Made by a program: the position numbers and the translations under genes. Below are positions 10,840 to 62,440 of a stretch of 64,000 nucleotides of DNA, piece after piece. The stretch comes from Wenzhouxiangella sp. 15190 (GTDB lineage Bacteria; Pseudomonadota; Gammaproteobacteria; Xanthomonadales; Wenzhouxiangellaceae): positions 124,001-188,000 of the forward strand of contig NZ_QVMV01000052.1 in the NCBI RefSeq assembly GCF_003417465.1, read 5' to 3'. The notes beneath the pieces were generated by a model. It did no database searches, was not told the origin of the DNA, and was given only the letters and a program-made list of their open reading frames with translations. The stretch's first letter is position 1. Each line of letters starts with the position of its first letter.

Positions 10840-10916
10840 GGAACCACGGAAGACACGGAATTCACGGAAGAATATTGATTGTCTTTCTCCGTGTGTTCCG
10901 TGATTTCCGTGGTTTC
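10840..10916. repeat. Intergenic inverted repeat, family I (CACGGAAnn 9-mer arms), copy 1
   Basis: Left arm 10840-10871 holds three 9-bp units of the form CACGGAAnn. After an ~12-bp spacer the right arm (10883-10916) holds three units of the complement TTCCGTGnn. The arms are near-perfect reverse complements, so the RNA or single strand folds into a hairpin of about 30 bp. It fills the spacer between the thiolase and hydratase/dehydrogenase genes. Confidence 0.9.
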
Positions 10917-10936
10917 TCTCGAGTTCATGTCTAGCC

Positions 10937-13306
10937 TTAATTGCGAAGGGGCTTGCCGGTCTTGAGCATGTGCGCCACGCGTTCCTGGGTCTTGTCCATG
11001 GCGGCCAGCTTCAGGAAGTGCTCGCGCTCGAGGCGGTGAATCCATTCCTCGTCGACCTGTCCGCCGCGGTCGATCTCGCCGCCGCAAAGCACAGTGGCAA
11101 TGCGTGAGCCGATCTCGTAGTCGTGCTCGGAGATGAAGTGGCCTTCGAGCATGTTGACCAACAGCATCTTGAGCGTGGCGATGCCGACATCACCGGCGGC
11201 CGGGAACTTGCGTCCGGCCAGCGGCGGACGGTAGCCGGCCGCGGCCATGGCACGGATTTCGTGGTGGGCGGCATGCAGCAGTTCGTGTTCGTGCAGCACG
11301 ATGCGGTCGTGCTCGCGCAGGTAGCCCATCTCGCGCGCTTCCATCGCGGAGCCGGCCACCTGGCCCATGGCGACCTGCTTGTAGCGTTTTTCCAGCAGGG
11401 GATGGGTGTCGCCGGCCTTGGTGTCGTCGACGATCTGCATGGCCAGGGTGCCCAGTCCGCCGCCGGCCGGTACCAGGCCCACGCCGGCCTCGACCAGCCC
11501 CATGTAGCTTTCCAGATGCGCCACGCGCGTGGCCGTGTGCATGGCCAGTTCCAGGCCGCCGCCCAGGGCCAGGCCGCGCACGGCGGCGACCGTCGGTACG
11601 GATGCGTAGCGCAGGCGCAGGTTGGCGGCCTGGAAGCCTGCCACCAGGTCGTGCACGCTGTCGAAGTCGCCCTTCTGGATGGCCTCGGCGGCCGCCTTGA
11701 GGTTGGCGCCGGCCGAGAAAGGCCCCTTGGGCTGCCAGATCACCAGGCCCTCGAAGTTCGACTCGGCCCGTTCGACGGCCTCGTCGAGTCCCTCGACCAC
11801 GCCGTTGTCGATCACCGCCATCTTGCTTTTCAGGCTGGCGATAAGCACGTCGTCTTGCAGCGTCCACAGGCGGATCGAGTCCGTTTCGTGAACGGTCGTG
11901 CCGTTGTCGGTTTTCTCTCCCAGCAGACGTACCGGCTGGTACTGGCGCTGGAACACCGGCAGGTCGGGACGCGGCAGGTAGCGCGCCTGGTCGGCGGCCC
12001 AGGAGCCTTCCGGCGTGTGCACGGCTTCGATCTGGTTGACCCATTCCGGCAGGTCGGCGTCGACGCCGGTCTTGCCGTCGCTGATGTCCTTCTGGACAAG
12101 CTCGGCCATTTTCTGCCAGCCGGCCGACTGCCAGATCTCGAACGGGCCGAGTTTCCAGCCGTAGCCCCAGCGGATCGCCAGGTCGACTTCGCGCGCGCTG
12201 TCTGCGATCTCCGCCAGGTGGTAGGCGCAGTAGTGGAAGAGGTCGCGGTGAATCGACCACAGGAACTCGGTGTGCGCGTTCTCGCACCTGGCCAGTTCGG
12301 CCAGCTTCTCGCCCGCGTCCTTGATCGCCAGCACTTTCTGCACGTCATCGGGCAGGCTGTAGTCGCTGTCGCGGTAGTCGCCGGACTCGGGGTCGAACAC
12401 GCGAATGGACTTGCCTTCCTTGCGAAACACGCCCGCGCCGGATTTCTGGCCCAGGGCGCCGGCTTCGATCAGCTTCTGCAGCCATTCGGGCTGTTTGAAC
12501 CAGTCGTGCCAGGGATCGTCTTCGAGCTGGGCCTGCATGGTATTGATGACATTGCCCATGGTGTCCAGCCCGACGACGTCGGCCAGGCGGAAGGTGGCGC
12601 TCTTGGGCCGCCCGATGGCCGGGCCGGTCATGGCGTCGACGGTGTCGAAGCCCAGGCCCAGGCGATCGGCGTGGTGCATCACCGACAGCATGGTGAACAT
12701 GCCGACCCGATTGCCGATAAAGTTGGCCGTGTCGCGACAGCGCACGACGCCCTTGCCCAGATTGCGGGTGAGGAAATCCTCGAGCAGGTCGAGTACATTG
12801 TCGTCGGTGCCGGCATGCGGGATCAGTTCCACCAGGTGCATGTAGCGCGGCGGATTGAAGAAATGTACGCCGCAGAACCGGCCGCGCAGTTTCTCGGGCA
12901 GTTCCTTCGACAACTCGGTAATGGAGAGGCCCGAGGTGTTGGAGGCGAAGATCGCGTCGTCGCGAACGTGCGGCGCGAGCTTGCCATAGAGGTCGCGCTT
13001 GATGTCCATGCGTTCGGCCACCGCCTCGATGATGAAGTCGCAGTCGGCAAGCTTGTCGAGATCGTCGGCGAAGTTCAGCGGCCGAATGAACTCGACCAGG
13101 TCCTTGCTGGCCAGCGGCGCGGGCTTGAGCTTGAGCAGCCCCTGCCGGCCTTTCTCGGCCAGCTGGTTGCGGTCGCCCTCGTCGGAGGGCAGGTCGAAGA
13201 GGTCGACCGGAATGCCGGCGGCGGTCAGGTGCGCGGCGATCTGCGCACCCATCACCCCGGCGCCCAGCACCGCGGCACGTCTTACCTTGAGCTTGTGGTC
13301 CGTCAT
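10937..13306 (-). CDS. Bifunctional 3-hydroxyacyl-CoA dehydrogenase / enoyl-CoA hydratase (FadN-type domain order)
   Basis: Carries out the hydration and NAD-dependent dehydrogenation steps of beta-oxidation. Domains run in the order dehydrogenase then hydratase: the NAD-binding motif VLGAGVMGAQIAAHL is at residues 13-27, HFFNPPRYMHLVELI contains the catalytic His, and the crotonase part begins near residue 485 (FSAGANL and ALGGGLELAM form the oxyanion region). E. coli FadB has the opposite order; this order is that of B. subtilis FadN. At 789 residues it matches FadN. The ATG at 13306 is preceded by GGAAGGA; the upstream TTG at 13321 is less likely. Probably co-expressed with fadE and the thiolase. 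Confidence 0.92.
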   Translation of the reverse strand: MTDHKLKVRRAAVLGAGVMGAQIAAHLTAAGIPVDLFDLPSDEGDRNQLAEKGRQGLLKLKPAPLASKDLVEFIRPLNFADDLDKLADCDFIIEAVAERMDIKRDLYGKLAPHVRDDAIFASNTSGLSITELSKELPEKLRGRFCGVHFFNPPRYMHLVELIPHAGTDDNVLDLLEDFLTRNLGKGVVRCRDTANFIGNRVGMFTMLSVMHHADRLGLGFDTVDAMTGPAIGRPKSATFRLADVVGLDTMGNVINTMQAQLEDDPWHDWFKQPEWLQKLIEAGALGQKSGAGVFRKEGKSIRVFDPESGDYRDSDYSLPDDVQKVLAIKDAGEKLAELARCENAHTEFLWSIHRDLFHYCAYHLAEIADSAREVDLAIRWGYGWKLGPFEIWQSAGWQKMAELVQKDISDGKTGVDADLPEWVNQIEAVHTPEGSWAADQARYLPRPDLPVFQRQYQPVRLLGEKTDNGTTVHETDSIRLWTLQDDVLIASLKSKMAVIDNGVVEGLDEAVERAESNFEGLVIWQPKGPFSAGANLKAAAEAIQKGDFDSVHDLVAGFQAANLRLRYASVPTVAAVRGLALGGGLELAMHTATRVAHLESYMGLVEAGVGLVPAGGGLGTLAMQIVDDTKAGDTHPLLEKRYKQVAMGQVAGSAMEAREMGYLREHDRIVLHEHELLHAAHHEIRAMAAAGYRPPLAGRKFPAAGDVGIATLKMLLVNMLEGHFISEHDYEIGSRIATVLCGGEIDRGGQVDEEWIHRLEREHFLKLAAMDKTQERVAHMLKTGKPLRN

Positions 13307-13347
13307 ATGTGTTCCTTCCAATCCGGATTGGGTGTCAATTAGTCTCT

Positions 13348-13422
13348 GGAACCACGGAGGACACGGAATTCACGGAGATTCTCTTGCTTGGCTTCCGTGG
13401 ATTCCGTGCTTTCCGTGGTTCC
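13348..13422. repeat. Intergenic inverted repeat, family I, copy 2
   Basis: Left arm 13348-13380 has three CACGGAnnn 9-mers and right arm 13392-13422 has three TTCCGTGnn 9-mers, separated by ~11 bp. Same design and outer ends (GGAACCACGGA / TCCGTGGTTCC) as the copy at 10840. It occupies the gap between fadE and the FadN-type gene. Confidence 0.9.
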
Positions 13423-13429
13423 CGTGTAT

Positions 13430-15868
13430 CTAGCTGGCCTTGGCCACGGGCGGCTGCATGGCCTGCGTGCCGCCGATCTCTTCGGGCGTGAACTCGTCGA
13501 CGGCGATGACTTTCGCGGTCAGTTCCTGTGCCCGTTTGAGGCCGGTGCCCTGTTCCTCGGTGATCACGCCGGCGGCGACGGCCTTGCTGACCACCTTGTC
13601 GACATTGACCGGCGTCGGCACGACCTTGAGTGCGTTGCGCACGGCCATCTCCGCGGGCGCCGCCTCGAGTACGGCCTCGAACGCCTGTGCGAGCAGTCCG
13701 GCGCCGTCATCGCCCTTCGACTGGTAGGCGCCGGCAATCAGGCGCTCGCGGCTCGGCGAGACTTCCATCATCAGGCGGGCCATCTTGTGCGTCGTGCGGT
13801 CGTCGACCGGATGATGCCGGCGTCCCCAGGGGAACAGCAGCGGACGAAGCACACCGCCCATTCCGGCGACCGGGAAGTTTTGCAGTACACCGAAGATGGC
13901 GTTTTCGGCCTGGTGCAGGCTGTCGGCCACGGCCCATTGCACCAGCGGCAGGTCTTCTTCCGGCCGGCCGTCGTCCTCGAAGCGCCGCAGCGCGGTGGAG
14001 GCCATGTAGAGGTGCGCCAGCGCGTCGGCCAGGCGGCCCGACAGCTTTTCCTTGAACTTGAACTTGCCGCCCAGGATGAGCAGGCACAGGTCGGCGACCA
14101 GGGTGAAGGCGGCGCTGAGCCGGTTGATCTTTCGGTAGAGGCCTGCCGTCGGGCCGGATACGGGCGAGCGGCTGAGTAGTCCGCCGGTCAGCCCCAGCAG
14201 GGGCGCACGCACGAAGTTCGAGATCACGAATCCGATGTGACCGAACAGGGCGCTGTCGAAAGCCTTGGCGTCGTCGTCCGCCGCGGACTCCATTTCCTTG
14301 AGCAGGTAAGGGTGGCAGCGAATCGCGCCCTGGCCGAAGACGATCATCGAGCGCGTCAGGATATTGGCGCCCTCGACGGTAATGGCCACCGGAATCGATT
14401 GCCAGGGAATGGAAAGATAGTTGTTGGGCCCTTCCACCACGGCCTTGCCGCCGTGGACGTCCATGGCGTCGTTGAGTACGCGCCGGTTGGCTTCGGTGAG
14501 ATAGGCCTTGAGGATGGCCGACAGCACCACCGGCTTCTCGCCGTGGTCGAGCGCGCTGAGCGTGAGCTTGTGCGCGGCCTCCATGCGGTAGGTCTCGCCG
14601 GCGATGCGTGCCAGCGGTTCCTCGATGCCTTCGAAATGGCCGATCGGCTGCTTGAACTGGTAGCGCACCCGGGCGTACGCCCCTGTGGTCATGCTGGTGA
14701 GCTTGCCGTTGGCCACGCTCTGGGCCGGCAGCGAGATGGCGCGGCCGGCCGCCAGGCAATGCATCAGCATGCGCCAGCCCTGGCCGATGCGCTCCTGTCC
14801 GCCGATGATCCAGTCCATCGGGATGAACACGTCCGTGCCCCGGGTCGGGCCGTTGAGGAAGACGCTGCCGCCCGGGATGTGGCGGTCGCCGATCTCCACG
14901 CCCGGTGTGTCGGTCGGGATCAGGGCGCAGGTGATGCCCAGGTTCTTCTTGTCGCCCAGGAGGCCGTCGGGGTCCTTCGCCTTGAAGGCCAGGCCCAGAA
15001 CGGTGGCGACCGGGGCCAGCGTGATGTAGCGCTTGTCCCAGCTTACCCGCAGGCCGAGTACCTCCTCGCCCTTGTAAGTGCCCTTGCAGACGATGCCTTC
15101 GTCCGGCATGGCGGCCGCGTCGGATCCGGCCAGCGGGGAGGTGAGGGCGAAACAGGGAATGTCCTCGCCCTTTGCCAGGCGCGGCAGATAGTGGTTCTTC
15201 TGCTCGTCGGTGCCGAAGTGCATCAGCAGTTCACCCGGGCCGAGCGAGTTGGGCACCATGACCGAAACCGCCGCCGACAGGCTGCGCGAGGCGATCTTGG
15301 TGACCACGGCGCCGTTAGCTTGAGAAGTGAAACCGAGGCCGCCGTACTCCCTGGGGATGATCATGCTCAGGAAGCGCTTGTCACGGATAAACTGCCAGGC
15401 TTCAGGCGGCAGGTCCTTGAGTTCGTAGTTGATCTGCCATTCGTCGAGCATGCCGCACAGTTCCTCGACCTCCCCGTCGAGAAAAGCCTGCTCCTCGGCC
15501 GAGAGTGCCGGCTTGTCGATGCCGAACAGCTTCTTCCAGCGGGGACGGCCGGAGAACAGTTCGGCGTCCCACCAGACGGTGCCGGCATCGAGCGCCTCGC
15601 GCTCGGTATCGGAGATCGGCGGCAGCACCGACTTGAACCAGCCGAACAGACGGTCGGACACGAGAACCCGGCGCAGCGGGCGGATGGCGACCACGGTCAG
15701 TGCGACTGCGGCGACCGTATACAGCGTGATCACCGGCCAGGAAGCGGCCTGCCAGATGGTGCCTAGCAGGGCGGCAATCGCGAGCAGCGCGGCCAGCCAG
15801 GACGGGGTTCGGAACCAGGCCAGCGCGAGCAGGCCCACGGCGAGTGTGATAATCAACAACCAGGTCAT
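13430..15868 (-). CDS. fadE: Acyl-CoA dehydrogenase FadE
   Basis: Membrane-associated flavoprotein catalysing the first step of beta-oxidation. At 812 residues it has the size of E. coli FadE rather than of the ~380-residue family. Two N-terminal hydrophobic helices (residues 3-40 and 45-62) precede the dehydrogenase core: MIIPREYGGLGF, then ALTSPLAGSDAA for the FAD/substrate site, and EGANILTRSMIVFGQGAIRCH further on. The C-terminal ~250 residues correspond to DUF1974, found in FadE proteins. The ATG overlaps the stop of the upstream TetR gene (ATGA), which implies co-transcription with its regulator. Confidence 0.96.
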   Translation of the reverse strand: MTWLLIITLAVGLLALAWFRTPSWLAALLAIAALLGTIWQAASWPVITLYTVAAVALTVVAIRPLRRVLVSDRLFGWFKSVLPPISDTEREALDAGTVWWDAELFSGRPRWKKLFGIDKPALSAEEQAFLDGEVEELCGMLDEWQINYELKDLPPEAWQFIRDKRFLSMIIPREYGGLGFTSQANGAVVTKIASRSLSAAVSVMVPNSLGPGELLMHFGTDEQKNHYLPRLAKGEDIPCFALTSPLAGSDAAAMPDEGIVCKGTYKGEEVLGLRVSWDKRYITLAPVATVLGLAFKAKDPDGLLGDKKNLGITCALIPTDTPGVEIGDRHIPGGSVFLNGPTRGTDVFIPMDWIIGGQERIGQGWRMLMHCLAAGRAISLPAQSVANGKLTSMTTGAYARVRYQFKQPIGHFEGIEEPLARIAGETYRMEAAHKLTLSALDHGEKPVVLSAILKAYLTEANRRVLNDAMDVHGGKAVVEGPNNYLSIPWQSIPVAITVEGANILTRSMIVFGQGAIRCHPYLLKEMESAADDDAKAFDSALFGHIGFVISNFVRAPLLGLTGGLLSRSPVSGPTAGLYRKINRLSAAFTLVADLCLLILGGKFKFKEKLSGRLADALAHLYMASTALRRFEDDGRPEEDLPLVQWAVADSLHQAENAIFGVLQNFPVAGMGGVLRPLLFPWGRRHHPVDDRTTHKMARLMMEVSPSRERLIAGAYQSKGDDGAGLLAQAFEAVLEAAPAEMAVRNALKVVPTPVNVDKVVSKAVAAGVITEEQGTGLKRAQELTAKVIAVDEFTPEEIGGTQAMQPPVAKAS

Positions 15869-16503
15869 GATGTTGCCTCCAGAGTGCGTCGGGCACTATC
15901 GGGGATGCGGTTTTCGAGACTGCCGCGCAGGCCGGCGGCAGCGAACTGAACCAGTTCGGCGGCGATGATGCGGGTGTCCTTCAAGGCCGATTCGGCCATG
16001 GTCAGAGTCAATGCACCGACAATGAAATCGAGTTGATGTCGCAGGCGAGTCGGATCTGCGTTCGGCAGTGCCTCGGAAACGGCGTCGGCGAAACGACGCA
16101 TGACGTGCGCATATTCGGCACGCATTGCTTCGTGCAGGGCTGTGTCACGGTCGGCAAAGGCGCGCAACAGGAGTTGCATGAATCGCTGTCCTTCGGCGTC
16201 GCCGCCGCGAGTGAACTCCAGCGCGGGCTCCACGAAAGCGTCGAGCACGGCTTCGAGTTCGGGACGGTCAGTATCGCTTTCGATCGCGTCCAGGCGTTCG
16301 AGCCGGGCCGCGTTGAGTGCATCCAGCCGGCGCCGAAAGATCGCCCGGATGAGTTCCTGTTTGGACCCGAAGTAATAGTTGACTGCTGCCAGGTTGGCTT
16401 CGGCCGCCTGGGTAATCTGCCGCAGCGTGGTCAGGTGGAATCCCTGGTCGGCGAACAGCCACTCTGCAGCGTCGAGGATGCGATCCCGGGTCGAAATGGC
16501 CAA
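15865..16503 (-). CDS. psrA: TetR family regulator, PsrA-like
   Basis: Probable acyl-CoA-responsive repressor of the fad genes. The 212-residue protein has an N-terminal TetR helix-turn-helix (RDRILDAAEWLFADQGF, then EANLAAVNYYFGSKQELI), where the NLAAVNYYFGSK stretch is characteristic of Pseudomonas PsrA. The start is a TTG at 16503 with a weak ribosome-binding site; no ATG or GTG is available nearby in frame. fadE overlaps its stop. A perfect AAAAC-N4-GTTTT palindrome lies 12 bp upstream, matching the known PsrA operator form, so autoregulation and control of fadE are likely. Ligand is inferred, not shown. Confidence 0.85.
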   Translation of the reverse strand: MAISTRDRILDAAEWLFADQGFHLTTLRQITQAAEANLAAVNYYFGSKQELIRAIFRRRLDALNAARLERLDAIESDTDRPELEAVLDAFVEPALEFTRGGDAEGQRFMQLLLRAFADRDTALHEAMRAEYAHVMRRFADAVSEALPNADPTRLRHQLDFIVGALTLTMAESALKDTRIIAAELVQFAAAGLRGSLENRIPDSARRTLEATS

Positions 16504-16514
16504 TTAAAACGCTC

Positions 16515-16536
16515 GATTAAAACAACCGTTTTAATC
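16515..16536. promoter_or_regulatory. PsrA-type operator palindrome
   Basis: GATTAAAAC-AACC-GTTTTAATC: two perfect 9-bp arms around 4 bp, fitting the GAAAC-N4-GTTTC style of PsrA sites. A further direct half-site ATTAAAAC at 16503-16510 overlaps the TTG start of the regulator gene. Together they suggest occlusion of the promoter and start region by the regulator. Confidence 0.75.
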
Positions 16537-16594
16537 CTACGCTTCCCGGAATCGATGTGCAAGACGGGGAAGGAAAACAGAACAATCTAGCGAG

Positions 16595-16668
16595 GGAAAA
16601 CACAGAAAGCACGGAATAAAGAATTTGTGCTATTTCAATTCCGTGATTTCCGTGTCTTCCGTGGTTCC
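16595..16668. repeat. Intergenic inverted repeat, family I, copy 3 (one arm decayed)
   Basis: Right arm 16634-16668 has three intact TTCCGTGnn units and the family outer end GTGGTTCC. The left arm (16595-16623) keeps only a CACAGAAAG and a CACGGAATA unit. It lies between fimT and the psrA-like gene. Confidence 0.82.
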
Positions 16669-16686
16669 AGGGTTTTTAGAGGCGTC

Positions 16687-17217
16687 TCAATCGCCCCCGC
16701 ACTCTGACGGATCGACATCGCGGGTGCTGCGGATGCGTCCCGGATTGGAGACGATCACCGCGCGCGCCTTGTCCGGATCTTCGGGGGCACAAACGCGGAT
16801 GGTGAGGTTGGTGCCGTAGGCGCCGCCGTGGCCCTGGAAGCGGACCCGGTAACGTCCGGCCGAGTGCATGAGCAAAGATTCCCGTGGTTCGACGACCCGC
16901 AGCACGTCCTCGGGCCCGTCAGGCTGGCCTTTCTTTTCGGGATCGAGATAGACGATCCAGCCGATGTCCCAACGATTGCCGCCGGTACAGGCGAGGCCGT
17001 TGGAGCTCGGGCAGGCAGCTACCGGCTGGTTGCGGAAAACGGCTTCATGCCGCGCGTAGTTGAGATGGCTGACCAGCTGGTTGGCTGCTGCCGTCAGCCG
17101 TTGCTGCGCCATGAAGTTGCCGAGCGCCGGCACGGCAGTGGTGAGTATGACTGCCATTACCGAAACTGCAATCATCAGTTCGATCAGCGTGAGACCGGAC
17201 TGTCGTTCCGTTGTCAT
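16687..17217 (-). CDS. GspH/FimT family type IV pseudopilin
   Basis: Minor pilin-like protein of 176 residues. The prepilin leader MTTERQSG is followed by the processed N-terminus LTLIELMIAVSVMAVILTTA, with Glu at +5 of the mature protein (the FTLIE-type class III signal cleaved by PilD), and by a hydrophobic helix. The C-terminal domain has the GspH/FimT pattern including an early Cys pair (AACPSSNGLACTG), NRWDIGWIVYLD and a late pair (RVCAPED...SECGGD). The ATG at 17217 is chosen because GGGGATT precedes it and the leader then has normal length. No other pilin gene is adjacent, so this is an orphan FimT, often seen in xanthomonad-like genomes. Confidence 0.88.
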   Translation of the reverse strand: MTTERQSGLTLIELMIAVSVMAVILTTAVPALGNFMAQQRLTAAANQLVSHLNYARHEAVFRNQPVAACPSSNGLACTGGNRWDIGWIVYLDPEKKGQPDGPEDVLRVVEPRESLLMHSAGRYRVRFQGHGGAYGTNLTIRVCAPEDPDKARAVIVSNPGRIRSTRDVDPSECGGD

Positions 17218-17394
17218 GCGAATCCCCGTTACATTGCGAGCCGTGTGGAACAGCTTCGGCAATCGGTCGGGGATGGCGAAACCGCCAAGTCACCAGCGGT
17301 GATGTAGGAGTTTTTCGTTCTGCTGCGTAGTACTGGGGAGCCTCCCGCAAAGGCACCGTCGCGCCCGCGCAGAGTTATTCAGAGGCTCCCTGAA

Positions 17395-19262: not shown

Positions 19263-19324
19263 GATACAACTCCCTACTGGATTCCTGTGGCGCGGCCGAT
19301 CACGGCCGCTATCGGATGAACCAT

Positions 19325-19330: not shown

Positions 19331-19362
19331 CGCCCTGCCATGTCGACGAGTGATTACGGTCA

Positions 19363-24772: not shown

Positions 24773-25007
24773 TTCCAAATCTCAAGCACCAAATATCAAA
24801 CAAATTCGAATGACCGAATATTTAATGACCGAAACGGGCATGGAGCCAAAATGACAAGCCTGTGCGGATGGGCAGGCGGGGTTCCCATATGCACGGCCGG
24901 CGAGGGCCGAGCCGATCCGGGATGAATTGGCCGCCCCTCGGTTTAGGTCATTGGAATTTCGTTCATTGAAAATTGTTTGATATTTGGTGCTTGTGATTTG
25001 GTGCTTG
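24773..25007. repeat. Long intergenic inverted repeat, family VI (CAAGCACCAAAT arms)
   Basis: Left arm 24773-24830 and right arm 24946-25007 are near-complete reverse complements (CAAGCACCAAATATCAAAC / GTTTGATATTTGGTGCTTG and outward). The arms are A/T-rich against a GC-rich genome and contain internal echoes (CAAGCACCAAAT, AATGACCGAA). The 115-bp spacer is GC-rich and has no coding potential. It accounts for most of the 393-bp gap between the TonB receptor and the ABC operon; the rest contains the Fur-like site. Confidence 0.88.
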
Positions 25008-29360: not shown

Positions 29361-29428
29361 TTTTCAGGTTTCAGGGTTCAGGTTTCAGGAAAAGACAGAT
29401 CGAAGCCCGCCCCTGAAACCTGAAACCT
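29361..29428. repeat. Intergenic inverted repeat, family II (TTTCAGG 7-mer arms)
   Basis: Left arm 29361-29389 has four near-tandem copies of TTTCAGG; right arm 29411-29428 has CCTGAAA repeated. It occupies the gap between the convergent DUF2058 and metH genes and could form a hairpin in both transcripts, although neither side has a long U tract. Confidence 0.88.
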
Positions 29429-29432
29429 ACTT

Positions 29433-32104
<2,672 letters not shown>

Positions 32105-37916: not shown

Positions 37917-38350
37917 GCAAGCCGGTGCACATCTGGACCGACGGCGCCTGCCTGGGCAATCCCGGCCCCGGTGGCTGGGGCGTGCTGCTGCGCTGGAATG
38001 GCCATGAGCGCGAGCTTTCCGGCGGCGAGGCGGAGACCACCAACAACCGTATGGAACTGATGGCCGCCATACAGGGCCTGGAATCGCTCAAGCGCTCATG
38101 CAGGGTGATCCTGACGACGGACTCCCAGTACGTGCGCAAGGGCATCACCGAGTGGATGCCCAACTGGAAGAAAAACGGCTGGAAAACGGCCTCGAAAAAG
38201 CCGGTCAAGAACGCCGAACTCTGGCAACGCCTCGACAAGGCGCGCGAACGCCACGACGTGCAGTGGGACTGGATCAAGGGCCACAGTGGTCACCCGGAGA
38301 ACGAGCGGGCAGACGAACTCGCCAGTGGCGCCGCACGGGCGCAGTGTTGA
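37913..38350 (+). CDS. rnhA: Ribonuclease HI
   Basis: Degrades the RNA strand of RNA-DNA hybrids. The 145-residue protein keeps all four catalytic acids at the E. coli positions: Asp10 (WTDGAC), Glu48 (NRMELM), Asp70 (TTDSQYV) and Asp134 (ERADEL), plus the basic handle helix region ([16 protein letters not shown]). The start overlaps the yafS stop. The stop codon TGA coincides with the start of a tandem/inverted repeat element, so the last residues (AARAQC) may be a recent alteration. dnaQ follows after 80 bp, as in enterobacteria where rnhA and dnaQ are divergent; here they are co-directional. Confidence 0.97.
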
Positions 38351-38424
38351 GTGTGAAGTGTGAAGTGTGAAGTGGGCCGGCCTCATTCGCGCCTTTACAC
38401 TTCACACTGAACACTTCACACTTT
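38345..38424. repeat. Intergenic inverted repeat, family III (TGTGAAG 7-mer arms), copy 1
   Basis: Left arm 38345-38374 holds three tandem TGTGAAG units, right arm 38394-38424 holds CTTCACA units with the same period; spacer about 20 bp, GC-rich. The left end (TTGAGTGTGAAGTG) contains the rnhA stop codon. It spans the rnhA-dnaQ gap up to 7 bp before the dnaQ ATG. Confidence 0.9.
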
Positions 38425-42198: not shown

Positions 42199-42220
42199 GT
42201 TTGGCGGGCAAGTCCCTTAA

Positions 42221-42409
42221 AACCTTTAAAACGCAAAGACGCTAAGACGCAAAGAACGCCAAGAAAGAAAAATCCATAAAGCAGGTGACCACGGAAGTTG
42301 CTGAAAGGCTGGAGTTAACCCAGTTCGCTGATTGTTGGTTTTTATCATTCAATTATTTGTTTTTCTTTGCGTTCTTTGCTACTTCGCGTCTTTGCGTTTT
42401 AAAGATTTT
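42221..42409. repeat. Long intergenic inverted repeat, family IV (ACGCAAAGA arms)
   Basis: Left arm 42221-42272 and right arm 42357-42409 are reverse complements at roughly 85-90 percent, with recurring ACGCAAAGA / TCTTTGCGT units of period 8-10 bp. The 84-bp spacer shows no coding. It separates gltX from zur and its right end lies 28 bp before the zur start, so the zur promoter must be inside or overlap it. Confidence 0.9.
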
Positions 42410-42437
42410 CATATTCGCCGCCTGATAGAATGAAGGC

Positions 42438-43849: not shown

Positions 43850-43883
43850 TGGGTTCCTGAAGGTGTCCCGAGTGTAGGGAGCC

Positions 43884-43911
43884 TGTCACTGTCGTGTCAC
43901 GAAAGTGTCAC
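43884..43911 (+). promoter_or_regulatory. Pho box (three half-sites) upstream of phoB
   Basis: Three TGTCAC repeats at 43884, 43895 and 43906, spaced exactly 11 bp, form an extended PhoB-binding direct repeat 44 bp upstream of the phoB ATG. This predicts autoregulation of phoBR. Confidence 0.88.
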
Positions 43912-43954
43912 ATGACATTGCTGCAATGATGCCAGGTTGACTGTAAGGCATGCC

Positions 43955-47002: not shown

Positions 47003-47106
47003 GCACCGTCCGGATCGCATGTTGAGTCCGAGCGGCCCCGATACTTTCGGGGCCGTTCGATATCGGCCCGCCGGCGACAACGATCAGTACACGACCGAAT
47101 TTCTGG

Positions 47107-49417: not shown

Positions 49418-49681
49418 GTGTACCCCGCCGCTAATTCTGTAGCATTCAGAGCGTGCCTGAGCCGACAGTGCAAGGCGCGCCCCGCAGTGAATGGCAAGCC
49501 CTTTACAAGGGGGGCAACGCCGCAATGTCGTCTCAGGCACGCTCCCGAAGGGCGAGCCGGAAAGCGTTCACCTGCGGTGTTATGCCTCTTGACAAGGACG
49601 CTGCCATTGCCTGCGAGCCATGCCTTGCAGCTAAACGCTTTCCGACTCGCTGAAAGTTACAGCATTAACGGCGGGGTACAC
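49418..49681. repeat. 264-bp element of nested inverted repeats between pstC and pstA (MITE-like)
   Basis: Terminal inverted repeats of 32 bp (49418-49449 and 49650-49681, 28 of 32 identical, outer end GTGTACCCCGCCG) enclose two further inverted repeats: GCGTGCCTGAG... (49451-49477 / 49518-49542) and GCGAGCCGGAAAGCGTT... (49553-49582 / about 49615-49650). A small CCCTT/AAGGG hairpin sits inside the first. No coding region and no clear target-site duplication. It fills the pstC-pstA gap (8 bp after pstC, 5 bp before pstA). Confidence 0.85.
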
Positions 49682-51366: not shown

Positions 51367-51404
51367 GGAACCACGGAAAACACGGAGGTGAATTCCGTGG
51401 TTCC
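51367..51404. repeat. Intergenic inverted repeat, family I, copy 4 (short)
   Basis: Left arm 51367-51386 (GGAACCACGGAAAACACGGA, two units) and right arm 51393-51404 (TTCCGTGGTTCC, one unit) with a 6-bp spacer. Same ends and 9-bp period as the three copies in the fad region. Located in the 85-bp gap between pstA and pstB. Confidence 0.85.
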
Positions 51405-51439
51405 CGATCGCAGGAATCTAATCGAGAGTTGAACAGTCA

Positions 51440-52279
51440 ATGATGGAAGAGAAGCAACAGGAAACGCAGATTCCATCCGGCGTATCCGTCAATCAGGATC
51501 GCCAGACGCTCAATATCGAGCGTGAGGATATCTGTATCGAGACCCGTGGCCTCAACTTGTACTACGGCGAGGATCAGGCGCTGAAGAACGTCGATCTGCG
51601 CATCCCGCGCAATCGGGTGACGGCCTTCATCGGGCCGAGCGGTTGCGGCAAGTCGACGTTGTTGCGCTGCTTCAACCGCATGAACGACCTGATCGATATC
51701 TGCAGTATCGAGGGCGAGATCCTGATCGACGGGCAGGACATTCATCACCGCAACGTCGACGTGGCCGAACACCGGCGACGGGTGGGTATGGTGTTTCAGA
51801 AGCCCAATCCGTTTCCGAAGTCGATCTTCGAGAACGTTGCCTACGGGCTGAGGCTGCAGGGCGTTAACGACAGACGCAAGCTCTCGGAAGTGGTCGAGAA
51901 TGCGCTGCGTTCGGCAGCGCTCTGGGACGAGGTCAAGGATCGCCTGGACGACAACGCCTTCGGGCTTTCGGGCGGCCAGCAGCAACGGCTGGTCATCGCC
52001 CGCGCAATCGCCATCGAACCGGAAGTGATCCTGCTCGACGAGCCTTGTTCCGCGCTGGATCCGATTTCCACGGCCAAGGTCGAGGAACTTATCATCCAAC
52101 TCAAGGATCGTTATACCATTGTCATCGTGACGCACAACATGCAGCAGGCCGCGCGTGTTTCCGACTTCACCGCCTACATGTATATGGGCGAAATGGTCGA
52201 GTTCGACGACACGGCCCGGTTGTTCACCAATCCGCGCCGCAAGGCGACGGAAGACTACATCACCGGGCGGTATGGGTGA
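51440..52279 (+). CDS. pstB: Phosphate ABC transporter ATP-binding protein PstB
   Basis: 279-residue ATPase of the phosphate importer. Walker [14 protein letters not shown], signature LSGGQQQRL, Walker [14 protein letters not shown] and the H-loop in [13 protein letters not shown]. An N-terminal extension of about 35 residues precedes the NBD ([16 protein letters not shown]). Probably two ATG-like starts (MMEEKQQE at 51440 is the first). It is separated from pstA and phoU by repeat elements instead of the usual tight spacing. Its stop TGA coincides with the left edge of the next element. Confidence 0.97.
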
Positions 52280-52402
52280 GTGTAAAGTGTGAAGTGACTG
52301 TTTCGATTTGGGTGTTTGGTTTTAGGTTTTCTAGGTGTTAGGTGTTAGGCACAAGCTCAATGCGCTGATTGTTTTACTTCACACTTAACACTTAACACTT
52401 AA
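52278..52402. repeat. Intergenic inverted repeat, family III (AGTGTGAAGTG arms), copy 2, with an inner tandem repeat
   Basis: Left arm 52278-52299 (GAGTGTAAAGTGTGAAGTGAC) and right arm 52372-52402 (TACTTCACACTTAACACTTA...) use the same words as the rnhA-dnaQ element. Between them lies a separate direct repeat of TAGGTGT (52333-52349). The left end overlaps the pstB stop TGA. It fills most of the 150-bp pstB-phoU gap. Confidence 0.85.
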
Positions 52403-54972: not shown

Positions 54973-55059
54973 GCGCGTCTCCTTGTGGGCTGGTCTCGCA
55001 GCGGGTGAAAACCGAACATTATAGCAAGCGACGGCTCTGAAGGCCGCATCGGGCGGTTT

Positions 55060-55481
55060 TCAGCGCTTGACGCGAATCGTGCGCCCGCCGCCTTCGCGGT
55101 CGTCGATATGGATATGCCAGTCGGGGCCCGGCAGCCAGCCCTCGCCGCGCTCGGGCCATTCGACCAGCAGCAGGCTGCCTTCGGTCAGCAGGTCCTCGAG
55201 TCCCAGGTAGGCAATTTCCTCGCCGTGGCCCAGGCGGTAGAGATCGAGGTGGTGGATGTCCCGCCCGTCGATGACGTAGCTCTCGATCAGGCCGTAGCTG
55301 GGGCTCTTGACCCGTCCCTCGTATCCAAGCGCTCGCAGGAGGCCGCGTACCAGTGTGGTCTTGCCCACGCCCAGGTCGCCCGAGAGATAGACGATGCCCC
55401 CGTCGGCGAACTGGCCGGCCAGCGCCCCGCCCAGAGCCAGGGTTTCGGATTCGCTGAGGGCTGTGTATTCGCGCGGCTTAC

Positions 55482-55485
<4 letters not shown>
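55060..55485 (-). CDS. tsaE: tRNA threonylcarbamoyladenosine ATPase TsaE
   Basis: 141-residue P-loop ATPase essential with TsaB and TsaD for t6A modification of tRNA. Walker A LSGDLGVGKTTLVRGLL (around 35-51), SPSYGLIESY, the HLDLYRL motif and LLVEWPERGEGWLP are all diagnostic. The start overlaps the stop of the upstream nnrDE gene by 4 bp, an order (nnrDE-tsaE) found in E. coli (yjeF-yjeE), so the assignment is secure. Its usual amiB neighbour is missing. Confidence 0.96.
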
Positions 55486-56954
<1,469 letters not shown>

Positions 56955-56963
<9 letters not shown>

Positions 56964-58037
56964 GATTGCGATTATAGGCAAGGTGAGCTCGATTCCGGTG
57001 AACTGGTCGAGAAGATTCGCCAGTGGGGGCTGGAGCTCGGGTTCGCCGAGGTCGGTATTGCCGACACCGACCTCTCCGTCTACGAGCAGCGCCTGGATGC
57101 CTGGCTGGCCGAAGGCCGGCACGGTGAAATGGACTGGATGGCGGCCCACGGGCGCAAGCGCAGCCGGCCCGCGCTGCTGCATCCCGACACCCGCTCGGTG
57201 ATCGTCGCGCGCATGGACTATTTGCCGGAGTCGGCCCGGCCGGTGGAGGAACTGCTCGACCAGCCCGACCGCGCGGTTGTGTCGCGTTATGCCCTGGGCC
57301 GCGATTACCACAAGCTCATCCGCAAGCGGCTCAAGAAACTGGCCCAGCGCATCGAGCGCGAGATCGGGCCTTTCGGCCATCGTGTGTTCACCGACTCGGC
57401 GCCCGTACTGGAAAAGCCGCTGGCCGAAAAGGCCGGCCTGGGCTGGATCGGCAAGCACACCCTGTTGCTCAGCCGCCATGCCGGGTCGTGGTTCTTCCTG
57501 GGCGAGATCTATACCGATCTGGAGCTGCCGGCCGACGAGCCGGTGACCCCGCACTGCGGCACTTGCCGGCGCTGCATCGACGTCTGCCCGACGCAGGCGA
57601 TCACCGGGCCGTACCAGCTCGATGCGCGCCGCTGCATCTCCTACCTGACCATCGAATTGAAGGGCTCGATCCCCGAGGAACTGCGGCCGCTGATGGGCAA
57701 TCGCGTGTTCGGCTGCGACGACTGCCAGATGGTCTGTCCCTGGAACCGCTATGCGCAGCACACCGGCGAGGCCGACTTCGCGCCGCGCAAGGACCTGGAC
57801 GCCGGCGATCTGGTCGAACTGTTCGGTTGGGACGAGGCCACTTTTCTCGATCGGACCGAGGGCAACCCGATCCGGCGAACGGGCTACGAGTGCTGGCTCA
57901 GAAATCTTGCCGTGGCCCTGGGCAACGCCCCGACCTCAAGTGAGGTGGTCGAGGCGCTCAGAGCGCGCCGGGATCATTCCTCCGAACTGGTGCGCGAACA
58001 TGTCGCATGGGCGCTCGATCGGCACGCAACCGAGTAA
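56955..58037 (+). CDS. queG: Epoxyqueuosine reductase QueG
   Basis: Cobalamin- and iron-sulphur-dependent enzyme for the last step of queuosine synthesis. The 360-residue protein has the cobalamin domain (GFAEVGIADTDLS; DWMAAHGRKRSRPALLHP; ALGRDYHKLIRKRL) and the two 4Fe-4S motifs CGTCRRCIDVCPTQAI and CDDCQMVCPWN with all eight Cys. The C-terminal HEAT-like segment (GYECWLRNLAVALGNAP) is normal. The start is at 56955, as nothing upstream is conserved; the 5' end overlaps divergent nnrDE by 9 bp. Confidence 0.96.
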
Positions 58038-58038
58038 T

Positions 58039-58764
58039 TCAGGACTGGCTCCGCGCCTGCAGATCTTCGAGATAGGCCTTAATGCGCGCGGCATTGGCGC
58101 CCACGTCGCTCTGTCCCACGCGCGACTTGGAACGCACGTCGATTGCGCTGCCGTTGTTATCGCCCCGGATCCGGATTACGACGTCGTCCTTGAAGCCGAA
58201 CCAGAATGTGGTCGCTGTCGCCTCGATGCGACCTTCCGCCTCGCTCGCTTCAACGATTTCCCAACCCTGGGCACGGGCCGCCTCCAGGGCATGTTCGAAG
58301 GCGATGGCCGGCCAGGCGTCGAGCTGCAGGGTTCGGATGTCGGGATAGTGATCCCGCTGTTTCTCCGCCGTTTCCTCGCCGGGGTATTCGACGGGATTGG
58401 GGGCGTCTGCCCGCAAAGGCGCGATGGCCACGAATTCGGGTGGATCGGCGGTGTCGGTGGTGATGTCATGAATCGGCGGCACCGATCGCGCCTTCTGGAC
58501 CTGCAGGTACGGCACAGCCGCCGTCGTGAGGCCGATCACTACGGCGGCGACGAGCACAGTGGCGCCGCCGCGGCGTGTGGCCGGTATCAGCAGCAAAAGG
58601 ATGCCGAGGATGCCGGCGGCGACACCCCCGTACAACGCCCACTCCATCATCGTGAACCCGAAGCGGAAGTCCCACCAATCCATACGCGTGCCCGGGCCGG
58701 CCAGCAGCAGAAGCCCGACCGCAATGATGGCGATCACAAGGATGATGATGCGCAGTGCTTTCAT
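58039..58764 (-). CDS. DUF1499 membrane protein
   Basis: 241-residue protein with three membrane helices (about 5-22, 40-60, 68-88) and a C-terminal extracytoplasmic DUF1499 domain (VPPIHDITTDTADPPEFVA; the WEIVEASEAEGRIEATATTF stretch; VVIRIRGDNNGSAIDVRSKS). Domain of unknown function, common in proteobacteria, resembling lipid-binding folds. Converges with queG at the 3' end and is divergent from uppP by 142 bp. No operon partner. Confidence 0.87.
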   Translation of the reverse strand: MKALRIIILVIAIIAVGLLLLAGPGTRMDWWDFRFGFTMMEWALYGGVAAGILGILLLLIPATRRGGATVLVAAVVIGLTTAAVPYLQVQKARSVPPIHDITTDTADPPEFVAIAPLRADAPNPVEYPGEETAEKQRDHYPDIRTLQLDAWPAIAFEHALEAARAQGWEIVEASEAEGRIEATATTFWFGFKDDVVIRIRGDNNGSAIDVRSKSRVGQSDVGANAARIKAYLEDLQARSQS

Positions 58765-58906
58765 ACCGTATCTCCCCGAGGCATGGCGCCGGTTGTCTCC
58801 GACCGATTGAATTGAACGGTATCATAACGCCCGAATCCCTGACGCCCCGTCAATTGGACTGGCACATGCCCGCAGCGCGGCGAAACAACCCGACCGAGGA
58901 ACAAGC

Positions 58907-59707
58907 GTGGACTGGCTGCAGACCCTGCTGATCGCCCTGATCCAGGGCCTGACCGAATTCCTGCCCGTCTCCAGCCAGGCCCACCTGGTGCTGTATTCCT
59001 GGGTGACCGGCGGCGTCTACCAGGGCCTGGATTTCGACATCATCCTGCACGCGGGCTCGTTGTTCGCCGTGGTGTGGTATTTCCGCACCGAACTGCAATC
59101 GATGGCGCGTTCCTGGTTGGGCTCGCTCGCAGGTGGACGGGCCGATGCCGACTCGCGACTGGCCTGGTGGCTGATTATCGGCACACTGCCGGTGGTCGTT
59201 TTCGGCTTCCTGCTCAAGGACCTGGCCGCCGAAGAGCTTCGCGGTGTGGGTGTCATGGCCGCCGCGCTGATTGTCTTCGGCCTGCTACTGGGCTGGGCCG
59301 ACTGGCGCGGGCGGTGCGATCGCGACGAGTATCAGCTAGGGCTCCGGGCCGTACTGGTGATCGGTTTCGCCCAGGTATTGGCGCTGATTCCCGGCACCTC
59401 ACGTTCGGGCATCACCATCACGGCCGCGCTGTTCATGGGCCTGACCCGCGAGGCCGCCTCGCGGTTTTCCTTCCTGCTGTCGATCCCGGTCATCGCGGGC
59501 GCCACGGTGCTGGGTCTGCACGATCTTTCAACGGCCGAACTGACCACGCCGTGGGGGCTGTTGCTGCTGGGTTTCGTGGTCTCGGCGATCAGCACCTACG
59601 CCTGCATCCACTACTTCCTGGCCTTCATCAAGCGCATCGGCATGCAGCCGTTCGTGATCTACCGGATCGTGCTGGGCGGTCTTCTTCTGGGCTACGTTCT
59701 TTTGTAA
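58907..59707 (+). CDS. uppP: Undecaprenyl-diphosphatase UppP (BacA)
   Basis: Integral membrane phosphatase recycling the lipid carrier of cell-wall synthesis. The 266-residue protein has about eight helices and both active-site motifs: LIQGLTEFLPVSSQAHL (Glu17) near the N-terminus and ALIPGTSRSGITITAAL (Arg and Ser of PGTSRSG) in the middle. SSQAHL rather than the usual SSxGHL is the common variation of the gammaproteobacterial form. GTG start at 58907, GAGG lies 9 nt upstream. Converges with mutS. Confidence 0.96.
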   Translation: MDWLQTLLIALIQGLTEFLPVSSQAHLVLYSWVTGGVYQGLDFDIILHAGSLFAVVWYFRTELQSMARSWLGSLAGGRADADSRLAWWLIIGTLPVVVFGFLLKDLAAEELRGVGVMAAALIVFGLLLGWADWRGRCDRDEYQLGLRAVLVIGFAQVLALIPGTSRSGITITAALFMGLTREAASRFSFLLSIPVIAGATVLGLHDLSTAELTTPWGLLLLGFVVSAISTYACIHYFLAFIKRIGMQPFVIYRIVLGGLLLGYVLL

Positions 59708-59720
59708 GAGAGCCTCTGCC

Positions 59721-62288
59721 TCAGCCGTCTATCTTCTTGAGCCTGTAGAGCCAGTCCAGAGCCTCGCGTGGGCTTAGGTCGTCGGGGTCGACGTCCTCGA
59801 GCATGTCACGCAGCGGATCGGGCTCGGAAGTGGATTTCTCCTCAGCCCTGGACTGACCGAACAGGCCGAGCTGGGGTGTGCTGGCTGTGACGGCCTCGTT
59901 TTCCAGGCGGTCGAGGTGTTTTCGGGCCTGGGCAATGACGGGTTTGGGTACGCCGGCAAGGCGCGCGACCTGGATGCCGTAGCTCTGGCTGGCCGGGCCT
60001 TCCCTGACTGAATGCAGAAAGACGATCTCGTCGCCGTGCTCGCGGGCGTCGAGGTGGACGTTGGCGATGCCCTCGTGGTCCTCGGCCAGGCGGGTGAGCT
60101 CGAAGTAGTGGGTGGCGAACAGGGTCAGCGCGCGCAGGTTCAGTGCCAGTTCGGTCGCCACCGCCCAGGCGAGGGCGAGGCCGTCGAAGGTCGAGGTGCC
60201 GCGGCCGATCTCGTCCATCAGCACCAGCGAGTGCTCGGTGGCGTTGTGCAGGATATTGGCGGTTTCGACCATCTCGACCATGAAGGTGGAGCGGCCGCGG
60301 GTGAGGTCGTCGCCGGCGCCGATGCGCGAGAAGATGCGATCGATCGGGCCGATACGCGCCGATTTCGCCGGCACGAAAGAACCGGCGTGGGCCAGGATGG
60401 TGATCAGCGCGGCCTGGCGCATGTAGGTGGACTTGCCGCCCATGTTGGGGCCGGTGATCACCAGCATGCGTCGGTCGGGATCGAGGCGGCAGTCATTGGG
60501 CACGAAGGCCTCGTCCTGGACGCGCTCGACCACGGGGTGGCGACCCTCGGTGATTTCCAGGCCCGGGGTTTCGTCGAGCACGGGGGCATTCAGGCGCAGG
60601 GTCTCGGCGCGTTCTGCGAAGGTCACGAGCACGTCCAGCGCGGCCAGCCCGGCGGCGATGATCGCCAGTCGCCCGTGTTCGTTGCTGAGGCGCTCGATCA
60701 GTTCCTCGTAAAGCGCCTTTTCGCGAGTCAGCGCCCGCTCGCGCGCCGACAGCACCTTGTCCTCGAAGGCTTTCAGTTCCTCGGTGATGTAGCGTTCGGC
60801 GTTCTTGAGCGTCTGGCGGCGGCTGTACTCGGTCGGCACCTTTTCCATGTGGGTCTTGCCGATCTCGATGTAGTAGCCGTGCACGCGGTTGTAGCCGACC
60901 TTGAGCGTCTGGATGCCCGTGCGCTCGCGTTCCTGTTCTTCGTAGCGGACCAGGAAGTCGCCGGCGTTCTGGCTTAAGCTGCGCAGTTCATCGAGTTCGG
61001 CATCAAAGCCTTCGGCGATCACGCCGCCGTCGCGGATGACCATCGGCGGCTGTTCGACGATAGCGGTCTCGAGCAGCTCGAACAGGTCGGGGCAGGGCGC
61101 GAGGTCGTCGCGCAGCTCGTCGAGCAGCGGTACCGAAACCTGCTCCAGGGCATCGCCCAGCGCCGGCAAGCGGCCCAGGCCCTCGCGCAGGGTCGCCAGG
61201 TCGCGCGGCCGGGCGGTTTTCAGCGCAATGCGGGTCAAGACGCGCTCGATATCGCCCAGGCCGGAAAGCTGCTCATTGAGGCCGGGGTGTGCATGGGTCT
61301 CGAGCAGGGCGGCCACGGCCTCGTGGCGCGCCCCGAGGGCGGCGCGGTCGCGCAGCGGATGGGTCAGCCAGCGTTTGAGCTTACGGCTGCCCATGGGCGT
61401 GCCGGCGGTGTCCATCAGGCCGACCAGGGTGTGCTCGCTGCGGCCGTCGGGATGGACGTCGATTTCCAGGTGGCGGCGCGTGGCCGCGTCGAGTACCAGG
61501 TGCTCGGCCGGGCGCACGGCGCGCATGCCAGACAGGTGCGGCAGGTCGCCGGAGAGCATGTCGCGCGCGTAGCCGAGCAGGGCCCCGGCGGCGCCAACGT
61601 GCGGGCCGCGGCCCTCGATGCCGAAACCGGAGAGGTCCTGCACGCGGAACTGCCGGCACAGTTCGCGCTCGGCGGATTCGGTGTCGAAGGCCCAGGGTGG
61701 ATGTTCACGCACGGCCGCGCCTTCGCGGTTGAAGGGCACGGCGGCGTCTTCCGGCAGCAGCACTTCGGCCGGGCGCAGGCGTTCCAGTTCTGCGGTCAAT
61801 TCGGCCGCCGAGGCCAGCGCGCAGCAGCGCAGCCGGCCGCCGGCCAGGTCCAGCCAGGCCAGGCCGAAGCCGTCCTTTGCTGGCAGGATCGCCGCCAGCA
61901 GGCGCTCGGCGCGCTCCTCCAGCAGGGATTCCTCGGTGACCGTGCCCGGCGTGACGATCCTGACGACCTTGCGCTCGACCGGCCCCTTGGCGGTATCGGG
62001 GTCGCCGATCTGTTCGCAGATGGCCACCGATTCGCCCTTCTTGAGCAGGCGCGCAAGATAGCCGTCGACGCTGTGATAGGGCACGCCGGCCATCGGAATC
62101 GGTTCCCCCGCGGATTTGCCGCGGTGGGTTAGCGTGATATCGAGCAGCCCGGCGGCGCGCCTGGCGTCGTCGTAGAACAGTTCGTAGAAGTCGCCCATGC
62201 GGAAGAACAGCAGGATGTCCGGATAATCCGCCTTGATCCGGAGGTATTGCTGCATCAGGGGCGTGTGCTGGGTGCTCGTGTCGGCCAT
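59721..62288 (-). CDS. mutS: DNA mismatch repair protein MutS
   Basis: Mismatch-recognising ATPase. The 855-residue protein matches E. coli MutS (853). The mismatch-contacting Phe34-x-Glu36 is in [11 protein letters not shown], Walker A is [15 protein letters not shown], Walker [19 protein letters not shown] and the His switch ATHYFELT. The C-terminal helix-turn-helix and the beta-clamp motif region (QLGLFGQ) are present, followed by the tetramerisation tail ending [16 protein letters not shown]. The ATG at 62288 gives the normal start; an upstream in-frame start in the repeat element was not used. Confidence 0.98.
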
Positions 62289-62310
62289 TAGCTTGGAAGC
62301 TCTTGAAAAA

Positions 62311-62440
62311 ATTCGTCCACAGATGAACACAGATGAAAAAACAGAACATCAAAGGTGATGAAGCGGACTGTCTTTTCCCAACAAAGTGTTCTGAGGGGAT
62401 CCTTTTTTAATATCTCTGTTTATCTGTGGACATAAAGAAT
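62311..62440. repeat. Intergenic inverted repeat, family V (CACAGATGAA 10-11-mer arms)
   Basis: Left arm 62311-62347 (GTCCACAGATGAACACAGAT and following A tract) and right arm 62403-62440 (T tract, ATCTCTGTTTATCTGTGGAC and following), reverse complementary with some drift; about 55-bp spacer. It fills the gap between the divergent genes mutS and pncC and must contain or flank both promoters. Confidence 0.85.

Follow-up and report, generated by a model that had tools for sequence, protein, structure and literature searches.

What kind of element is an inverted repeat whose arms are themselves short tandem repeats, and what process would place such elements, under several different words, between the genes of one bacterium? 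The question is raised by a 64,000-nucleotide stretch of Wenzhouxiangella sp. 15190 (assembly GCF_003417465.1, contig NZ_QVMV01000052.1, positions 124,001 to 188,000 of the forward strand; hereafter the window), in which an initial annotation had described such repeats and sorted them into six unrelated families, I to VI. We conclude, with a probability of roughly 0.58, that these are intergenic elements of two superfamilies, organized in the manner of REPIN-RAYT systems but with other partner proteins, namely small proteins of the GxxExxY family (PF13366, PDDEXK_3) and of a four-helix bundle family (PF05635, 23S_rRNA_IVP). The initial annotation is judged right in seeing one recurrent class with many words and a shared process, probably acting in trans. 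Its interpretation was incomplete, because the words fall under two grammars, one for each family of partner genes, and the partner genes all lie outside the window; the words are indeed many, but the families are not unrelated.

The elements of the window stand well above chance. A blind scan (arms of at least 14, spacer of at most 250) recovered 14 gapped inverted repeats, compared to a mean of 1.5 and a maximum of 5 in 40 dinucleotide shuffles, and 7 of the 14 have tandem-periodic arms (shuffles, mean 0.05, maximum 1). The earlier count was nine places although ten were listed; all ten were read in the sequence, nine of them being among the blind-scan 14 and the tenth (51367), with 12-bp arms, being found by a targeted check. 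As had been claimed, all are intergenic by longest open reading frame (ORF) calls, with some stop-codon contacts (among them 29361 and 38350) and with element 62315 reaching 16 bp into the 5' part of an ORF whose start, as called by length, may differ from the true one. The lower GC content also holds (0.38-0.56 in the ten elements versus 0.635 in the window). A search of the window against Rfam and for tRNAs gave no match. The ten elements, none of which is assigned to a strand, are as follows.

10842..10914, no strand: family I element, word CACGGAA with a 9-10 bp period, in the gap between thiolase and 3-hydroxyacyl-CoA dehydrogenase genes
13350..13420, no strand: family I element, in the gap between 3-hydroxyacyl-CoA dehydrogenase and acyl-CoA dehydrogenase genes
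16595..16668, no strand: family I element, left arm decayed in part
24775..25001, no strand: family VI element, arms of 44 bp (CCAAATCTCAAGCACCAAATATCAAACAAATTCGAATGACCGAA), interior of 139 bp
29361..29435, no strand: family II element, 7-bp word TTTCAGG
38350..38422, no strand: family III element, word GTGTGAAG/TGTGAAG, in contact with the stop codon of an RNase H gene
42219..42409, no strand: family IV element, arms AAAACCTTTAAAACGCAAAGACGCTAAGACGCAAAG, 3' of a glutamyl/glutaminyl-tRNA-synthetase-type gene
51367..51405, no strand: minimal family I element, 1-2 words per arm, in the gap between transport permease and ABC ATPase genes
52279..52392, no strand: family III element in the next gap after 51367, in contact with the ABC ATPase stop codon, with GTGTTAGG repeats inside
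62315..62431, no strand: family V element, 10-bp word CACAGATGAA

The association that carries our conclusion emerges from a gene survey of 61 genomes, the own genome (G000; 3.13 Mb, 55 contigs) and 60 relatives. An inverted repeat with a score of at least 14 flanks GxxExxY genes at 37 of 40 loci and four-helix genes at 35 of 45, compared to 1 of 270 own-genome ORFs at the same setting. This one setting was applied to all recounted loci (a longer seed had earlier given 28/30 of the first GxxExxY loci), and the four-helix figure covers 45 of 49 listed places, omitting G032:C8, G030:C276, and two of the three in G034:C50. In 32/37 GxxExxY and 24/35 four-helix cases, neither arm is more than 100 bp away from the profile match; the repeats at two four-helix loci, L110 (score 15) and L105, are not clearly word-like. 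The three GxxExxY loci with no such repeat are L054 (at a contig edge), L294 (a broken gene), and L299. A gene-bearing copy consists of a tandem-word arm, one small gene, and the inverted arm, and spans about 0.4-0.7 kb in the measured loci. Gene-free copies have the same arms around mostly unrelated interiors and are dispersed, often just past gene 3' ends.

The arm word grammars differ between the two gene families. GxxExxY arms are of types IV and V and near-relatives of I, with words that include CACAGATGAA, ACGCAAAGA, CACCGAA, and CACAGAGA; four-helix arms are of types II, III, VI, and others, with words that include TTTCAGG, GTGTGAAG, and GTTGGCTG. Thus, the family V word of the window also flanks a GxxExxY gene of relative G003 (L056), and arms similar to those of family IV flank GxxExxY genes in G003, G016, and G024 (L079, L081, L293). 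On the four-helix side, the family II word flanks a gene of G003 (L131), the family III word flanks genes in the own genome (G000:C22) and in G018 (L125, L128), and an arm type similar to family VI flanks a gene fragment in the own genome (L126). In the own genome, the two families are represented by a single GxxExxY gene (L075, with the word ACGCGAAG) and by five four-helix matches. In two places of relative G034 (C8:36816-37160, L297; C23:30207-30542, L087), the GxxExxY domain lies in an open frame of more than 500 codons; these are possibly fusions, or merely long open frames.

All five GxxExxY proteins tested match their profile (TIGR04256/PF13366) at 129-156 bits (cutoff, 35), and all five four-helix proteins match theirs (TIGR02436/PF05635) at 62-113 bits (cutoff, 24). 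In 18/18 GxxExxY proteins of the relatives, residues G18, G20, E23, Y26, D63, E73, K75, Q87, Y91, G100, and N104 are invariant; across 31 such proteins from other phyla, D62, K74, and the same Q and Y are invariant, and E72 (equivalent to E73) is conserved in at least 90%. On these residue patterns, GxxExxY is predicted to carry the PD-(D/E)XK catalytic layout D..ExK. The E..D..ExK..QxxxY order is that of the Cas4/RecB-type PD-(D/E)XK nucleases. The GxxExxY protein is about 115 amino acids long. Among solved structures, GxxExxY has no sequence match up to an E value of 1. The four-helix proteins match XCC0516 (2gsc; profile E value, 4.6e-38) and 2rld, and one of five (L124) weakly matches the model NF033474 of Avd, a protein of diversity-generating retroelements, at an E value of 1.8e-8 and 34.6 bits, far below the cutoff of 80. 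Five gene loci searched against Rfam gave no match. Selection acts on both proteins: in 9/9 GxxExxY pairs, the nonsynonymous divergence (dN) is 0.01-0.18 and the synonymous divergence (dS) is many-fold larger or saturated (saturated in two), and in 6/6 four-helix pairs (one saturated), dN is well below dS, more weakly.

The words are conserved, and the arms are built around them. By eye, families I, IV, and V share a grammar near ACRC-RRA-RR, and families II and III are short 7-mers rich in G, T, and A, so the earlier statement that the families share no sequence holds only in part. Family VI departs from the tandem-word arms ascribed to it and is a 44-bp inverted repeat. Family I was resolved with 23 arms, which read GGAACCACGGAA nn CACGGAA n(2-3) CACGGAA. 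With the first word as the search anchor in the information-content measure, the second word holds 1.2-2.0 bits per position and the spacers only 0.07-0.6 bits; the third word is blurred by shift, and the highest value outside the arm is 0.9 bits (T at -1). Between paired arms, the free spacer letters are equal at 7/38 positions in the own genome (shuffle mean, 12.7) and at 1/8 in relatives (shuffle mean, 2.8). Neither arm of an element was therefore copied recently from its partner, and what is conserved is not a perfect hairpin. Among 29 elements compared, no interiors match within 9 elements of family I, 4 of V, 3 of III, or 2 of II; some match among those of IV and VI, and by inspection these are arm extensions, nested family I elements, or one inverted pair. 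Interiors within a family are thus mostly unrelated, and the elements did not arise simply by deletion from a common parent. In a search for interior sources in own-genome stretches and relatives, the non-self matches listed were other elements of the class or the same place. Family I elements are nested within family IV in 4/21 cases, compared to 0/2100 random positions.

The class extends well beyond the window. A scan of 464 kb of the own genome gave 70 gapped inverted repeats versus 13 in one shuffle; 36 of the 70 match hand-written word patterns, and further words appear (GTTGGCTG, GTGGTCG, GAAAATAG, CGCAGATGAA). The family I pattern CACGGAANNCACGGAA has 91 exact matches in the own genome, and its reversed control has 0. 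By longest-ORF gene calls, the 36 elements comprise 17 in codirectional gaps, 11 in convergent gaps, 5 in divergent gaps, 2 inside a long ORF, and 1 unplaced, the background gaps being 109 codirectional, 43 convergent, and 43 divergent. Thirteen of the 17 codirectional elements are nearer to the 3' end of the upstream gene, 3 are nearer to the 5' end of the next gene, and 1 is tied (p=0.02). Two contigs of G000 (C6 and C9, first 60 bases) and one of G009 (C32, first 45 bases) end in GTGTGAAG arrays, and such repeats may therefore break assemblies.

At orthologous sites, elements are gained, lost, and replaced. In the gap that holds element 10842, 12 of 15 relatives carry a word-armed repeat with a score of at least 13, and in the other three (G015, G006, G002) the word arms look weaker or like remnants when inspected by eye; no fewer than five word types, from both grammars, occur there, with the same word in two relatives. 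The 13350 site in relatives holds CACGGAA, family IV, CACAGAGA, CACCGAA, a plain GC hairpin, or nothing, and several relatives have element-free gaps of 5-48 bp at the 51367 and 52279 sites. The initial annotation had set identical elements at the same loci against its own view; the sites are indeed shared, but the words there are often different. Other gaps seldom or never hold an element, with no inverted repeat above score 10 at 43850-43936 in 11/11 relatives and none above 11 at 47003-47106 in 8/9. Sites thus differ in permissiveness. Read by eye, the interior of the 42219 element runs in opposite directions in G000 and G024. Long one-orientation arrays, (ACCGGAA)n and (GGGCTAA)n/(GGTCAAG)n, occupy the 42199-42437 site in G018 (L174) and G006 (L182), and other relatives have inverted pairs or nothing there.

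Gene-bearing copies show replacement as well. Within the genus, the GxxExxY copies compared occupy common chromosomal loci: by their flanking sequence, all 22 gene-bearing elements fall into six groups, and none stands alone. At one locus, different species have cassettes of ACGCGAAG, ACGCAAAGCAGC type, ACGCAAAG type, or CACCGAA, with different protein clades; L079/L081 versus L086/L090 is such a same-locus contrast.

The association of gene and repeat is not confined to the genus. In 84,980 species genomes scanned, there are at least 587 GxxExxY relatives, and of the 80 loci kept from these, in other phyla, 54 have a flanking inverted repeat with a score of at least 14, compared to 2/141 shifted intervals (the 54 include L207, where the repeat is not word-like). 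The link occurs in about 15 phyla, as labeled from record titles, most records being metagenome bins, and these include one archaeal bin (L220, Methanosarcinales). Across these phyla, ACCACAGAGACACAGAG is a word met repeatedly. Four-helix genes are present in 29/40 of those genomes, and 20/30 of their loci have an inverted repeat at the same threshold, compared to 1/55 controls, with L269 and L292 (score 0, perhaps a coordinate error) counted as misses. Plasmid records include 8 with GxxExxY and 21 with four-helix relatives. In viral contigs, there are 32 GxxExxY pattern matches, of which none was confirmed.

Protein and word vary together. Protein and arm distances correlate for GxxExxY (Mantel Spearman, 0.62; n=28) and for the four-helix family (0.34; n=31), with 0/5000 permutations in each case; the sets exclude loci that have no arms, and the arms of L051 were taken by eye. 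Since this covariation could be plain linkage inside one gene-bearing element, which is the first of several points that weigh against our conclusion, we counted word matches per genome (the counts include the arms of the gene-bearing copy). For CGCAGATGAACGCNGAT, the CGCAGATGAA type, 5/5 genus genomes with an intact gene have 25-50 matches, and 25 or more occur in 2/25 genus genomes without one (G001 and G005; Fisher p=1.5e-4); G034, of another genus, has 14. For CACCGAANNCACCGAA (CACCGAA), the two genomes that carry the gene stand at the top of the 61 (164 and 139 matches). For GTGTGAAGTGTGAAG (GTGTGAAG), the rank was predicted beforehand, and the two genomes with the gene again come first and second of 61 (172 and 86); G021 has 10, G024 has 7, and the remaining 56 genomes have 0. 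Control counts for this last word carry no information, since the array matches the reversed pattern too. In three of the four words tested, then, genomes with the gene have the highest numbers of word matches; in the fourth, family V (CACAGATGAACACAGAT), they do not.

The exceptions belong to the same list of difficulties. In family V, G010 carries the gene with a different arm word and has 0 exact matches, G000 shows 36 with no gene found, and G024 has 33 with a truncated gene; G003 has 46 with the gene, and G021 and G016 have 12 and 8. No gene was found in G001 and G005 (65 and 88% complete), which have CGCAGATGAA matches, and G009 has 58 GTGTGAAG matches with no four-helix match. CACCGAA matches occur, with no such gene found, in G028 (72), G016 (43), G011 (37), G010 (16), and G015 (14), and likewise in G025 and G003, within the range 8-72. 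Ten of the 45 four-helix loci (L095, L100, L103, L109, L111, L112, L116, L117, L120, L132) and 26 of the 80 GxxExxY loci of other phyla have no repeat at the threshold. None of the loci seen pairs a GxxExxY gene with the CACGGAA arms of family I, the nearest words at genes being CACCGAA (L086, L090) and, outside the phylum, CACGGAG. No catalytic site is known for the four-helix protein. Among 21 family I elements, whose true end is uncertain, there is no excess of target duplications at the threshold applied (offsets 0-6; lengths 2-6, 8, and 9). To judge from their flanks, the gene-bearing GxxExxY copies in the genus look inherited or replaced in place rather than jumping, and no movement has been observed.

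By analogy, REPIN-RAYT is the nearest working system. According to passages of PMC3116915, dispersed intergenic inverted pairs there go with a resident single-copy gene beside the repeat. The same passages describe a conserved inverted pair around a poorly conserved spacer, which the elements here also have, and several repeat types per genome, each beside its own gene; they suggest coevolution of the repeat and the protein of the single-copy gene. The present elements differ in that they need no Y1 transposase, their partners being GxxExxY or four-helix proteins, and in that their arms are tandem 7-10-bp words. The GTAG/CGTC tag that ends a 20-40-nt palindrome in REPIN-RAYT systems was not noticed by eye in the arms, no tag search having been made. 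RAYT/Y1 was considered as the mover of family I and rejected: G003 and G024, which are 99 and 97% complete, hold 25 and 73 family I matches and have no PF01797 (Y1_Tnp) match at an E value of 0.001 or less, which agrees with the earlier view that these are not ordinary repetitive extragenic palindromic/RAYT elements. The own genome has 3 PF01797 matches. In the open literature searched, with preprints and most subscription journals outside its scope, no link of word arms to GxxExxY or four-helix genes was found; the articles matched by the word letters were on fish environmental DNA (PMC8438044) and human GLI2 (PMC7367210), and gene names matched PMC8934634, PMC12085832, and PMC9756366.

It is unlikely, in our estimation, that the elements are binding sites of a host architectural or regulatory protein such as IHF or HU, with the small genes as unrelated passengers, although this explanation survives best of the four considered. 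Conserved words with free spacers resemble a protein footprint, the sites are near gene 3' ends, and there is a precedent in Geobacter metallireducens. In the sections concerned, Aklujkar et al. 2009 (PMC2700814) describe paired opposite-strand sites of 3-5 tandem 7-9-mers at variable spacing, attribute them to unidentified global regulators, perhaps IHF/HU, and call classes 1-3 unique to that genome. Measured against the figure legends of that article, the elements here have the same paired opposite-strand build, and the class words GTTGCTYN, TCTCCGTS[Y], and MTYCTGA resemble GTTGGCTG, CACGGAGA, and TTTCAGG; a difference is that its text on the classes has no partner gene. The legend of its Figure S3 places ISGme8/ISGme9 at a fixed distance from class 1 sites, and an insertion sequence may therefore target word hairpins. 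Passages on G. bemidjiensis (PMC2996986) likewise report multicopy repeat families, some palindromic and some direct repeats. However, many words per genome and replacement at orthologous sites fit poorly with a single conserved protein of the host, every word goes with a clade of the partner protein, and presence is patchy within the genus.

Action at the RNA level, as an RNase III site, 3'-end protection, or a terminator, seems to us improbable. Elements lie near stop codons, also within likely operons, and passages of PMC4990558 describe 23S rRNA intervening sequences that are cut by RNase III and in which the same four-helix protein is encoded between inverted repeats. Those elements, with an S23 ORF, are called selfish and possibly mobile by their authors, and they share with ours a short length, a four-helix S23 protein, and a terminal inverted repeat; they differ in sitting in rRNA helices, and the passages describe no tandem words, gene-free copies, or intergenic spread. 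Nevertheless, a transcript hairpin would gain from pairing of the arm spacers, which do not pair; one-orientation arrays and a single arm occur at the same sites; and no Rfam family matches.

Still less probable is the view that these are ordinary miniature inverted-repeat transposable elements (MITEs), remnants of DDE-type or other transposons that were shortened by internal deletion and are moved by a transposase elsewhere in the genome. Terminal inverted repeats, short length, dispersal, intergenic position, and presence or absence between relatives all fit such elements, but family I lacks target duplication, interiors are mostly unrelated, arm spacers are not copied along with the words, and gene-bearing copies hold one small nontransposase gene (the transposase search covered Y1_Tnp). 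The window does contain an element that is probably of the other kind: at 49418-49681, a 264-bp element with plain 32-bp terminal inverted repeats lies outside the word-armed class. The gap at its site is only 6-13 bp in eight relatives; it is thus a recent insertion and probably an ordinary MITE. Similar ends occur at L038 16957-17240. Another non-word inverted-repeat family of about 150-200 bp (L040 1067-1272, L042 15572-15779, L043 8343-8488) has inner arm ends that are alike, CTCTG(A/C)AAAAC and GCTGAAAAC. Self-templated arms, produced by snap-back replication or templated repair from any tandem word, as the initial annotation had suggested, would give one architecture with many words, and one-orientation arrays at one site indicate that tandem arrays can grow, but this is very improbable, as family I arms are not mutual copies at their free positions and the same word can be found dozens of times in a genome and again in other phyla.

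How a REPIN-RAYT-like organization might work with these partners can be sketched as follows. The partner protein would bind its own word in tandem, as an oligomer reading one word per subunit, and would mark or cut the ends of the element. Gene-free elements would thereby come to lie in further gaps between genes or take the place of those already there. If the resident gene were swapped for an allele with another word, the genome would be repopulated with the new word, and sister species would consequently carry different words at the same sites. A broader proposal, which we advance tentatively and hold at somewhat less than even odds, is that these are pan-prokaryotic systems for the spread of repeats. 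The tandem words would be read either by a nuclease of about 115 residues that resembles Cas4/RecB or by a four-helix oligomer that resembles Avd/S23, and this reader would cause hairpin elements at the 3' ends of genes to be gained, lost, or replaced by another family. Such systems would rely on neither a DDE, HUH, or tyrosine/serine recombinase nor a known retroelement, and a swap of the resident cassette would rewrite the word of the genome.

If true, DNA repeats would here be spread or maintained in a manner not yet described. Partner genes are assigned to a class of intergenic repeats that is widespread, and two large protein families that have no known role (GxxExxY alone with its at least 587 relatives) gain a testable job. 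The finding also bears on the roles of intervening-sequence/S23 elements and of Avd-like proteins. Finally, the replacement of words at fixed sites in sister species offers a natural experiment on the takeover of a genome by a repeat family.

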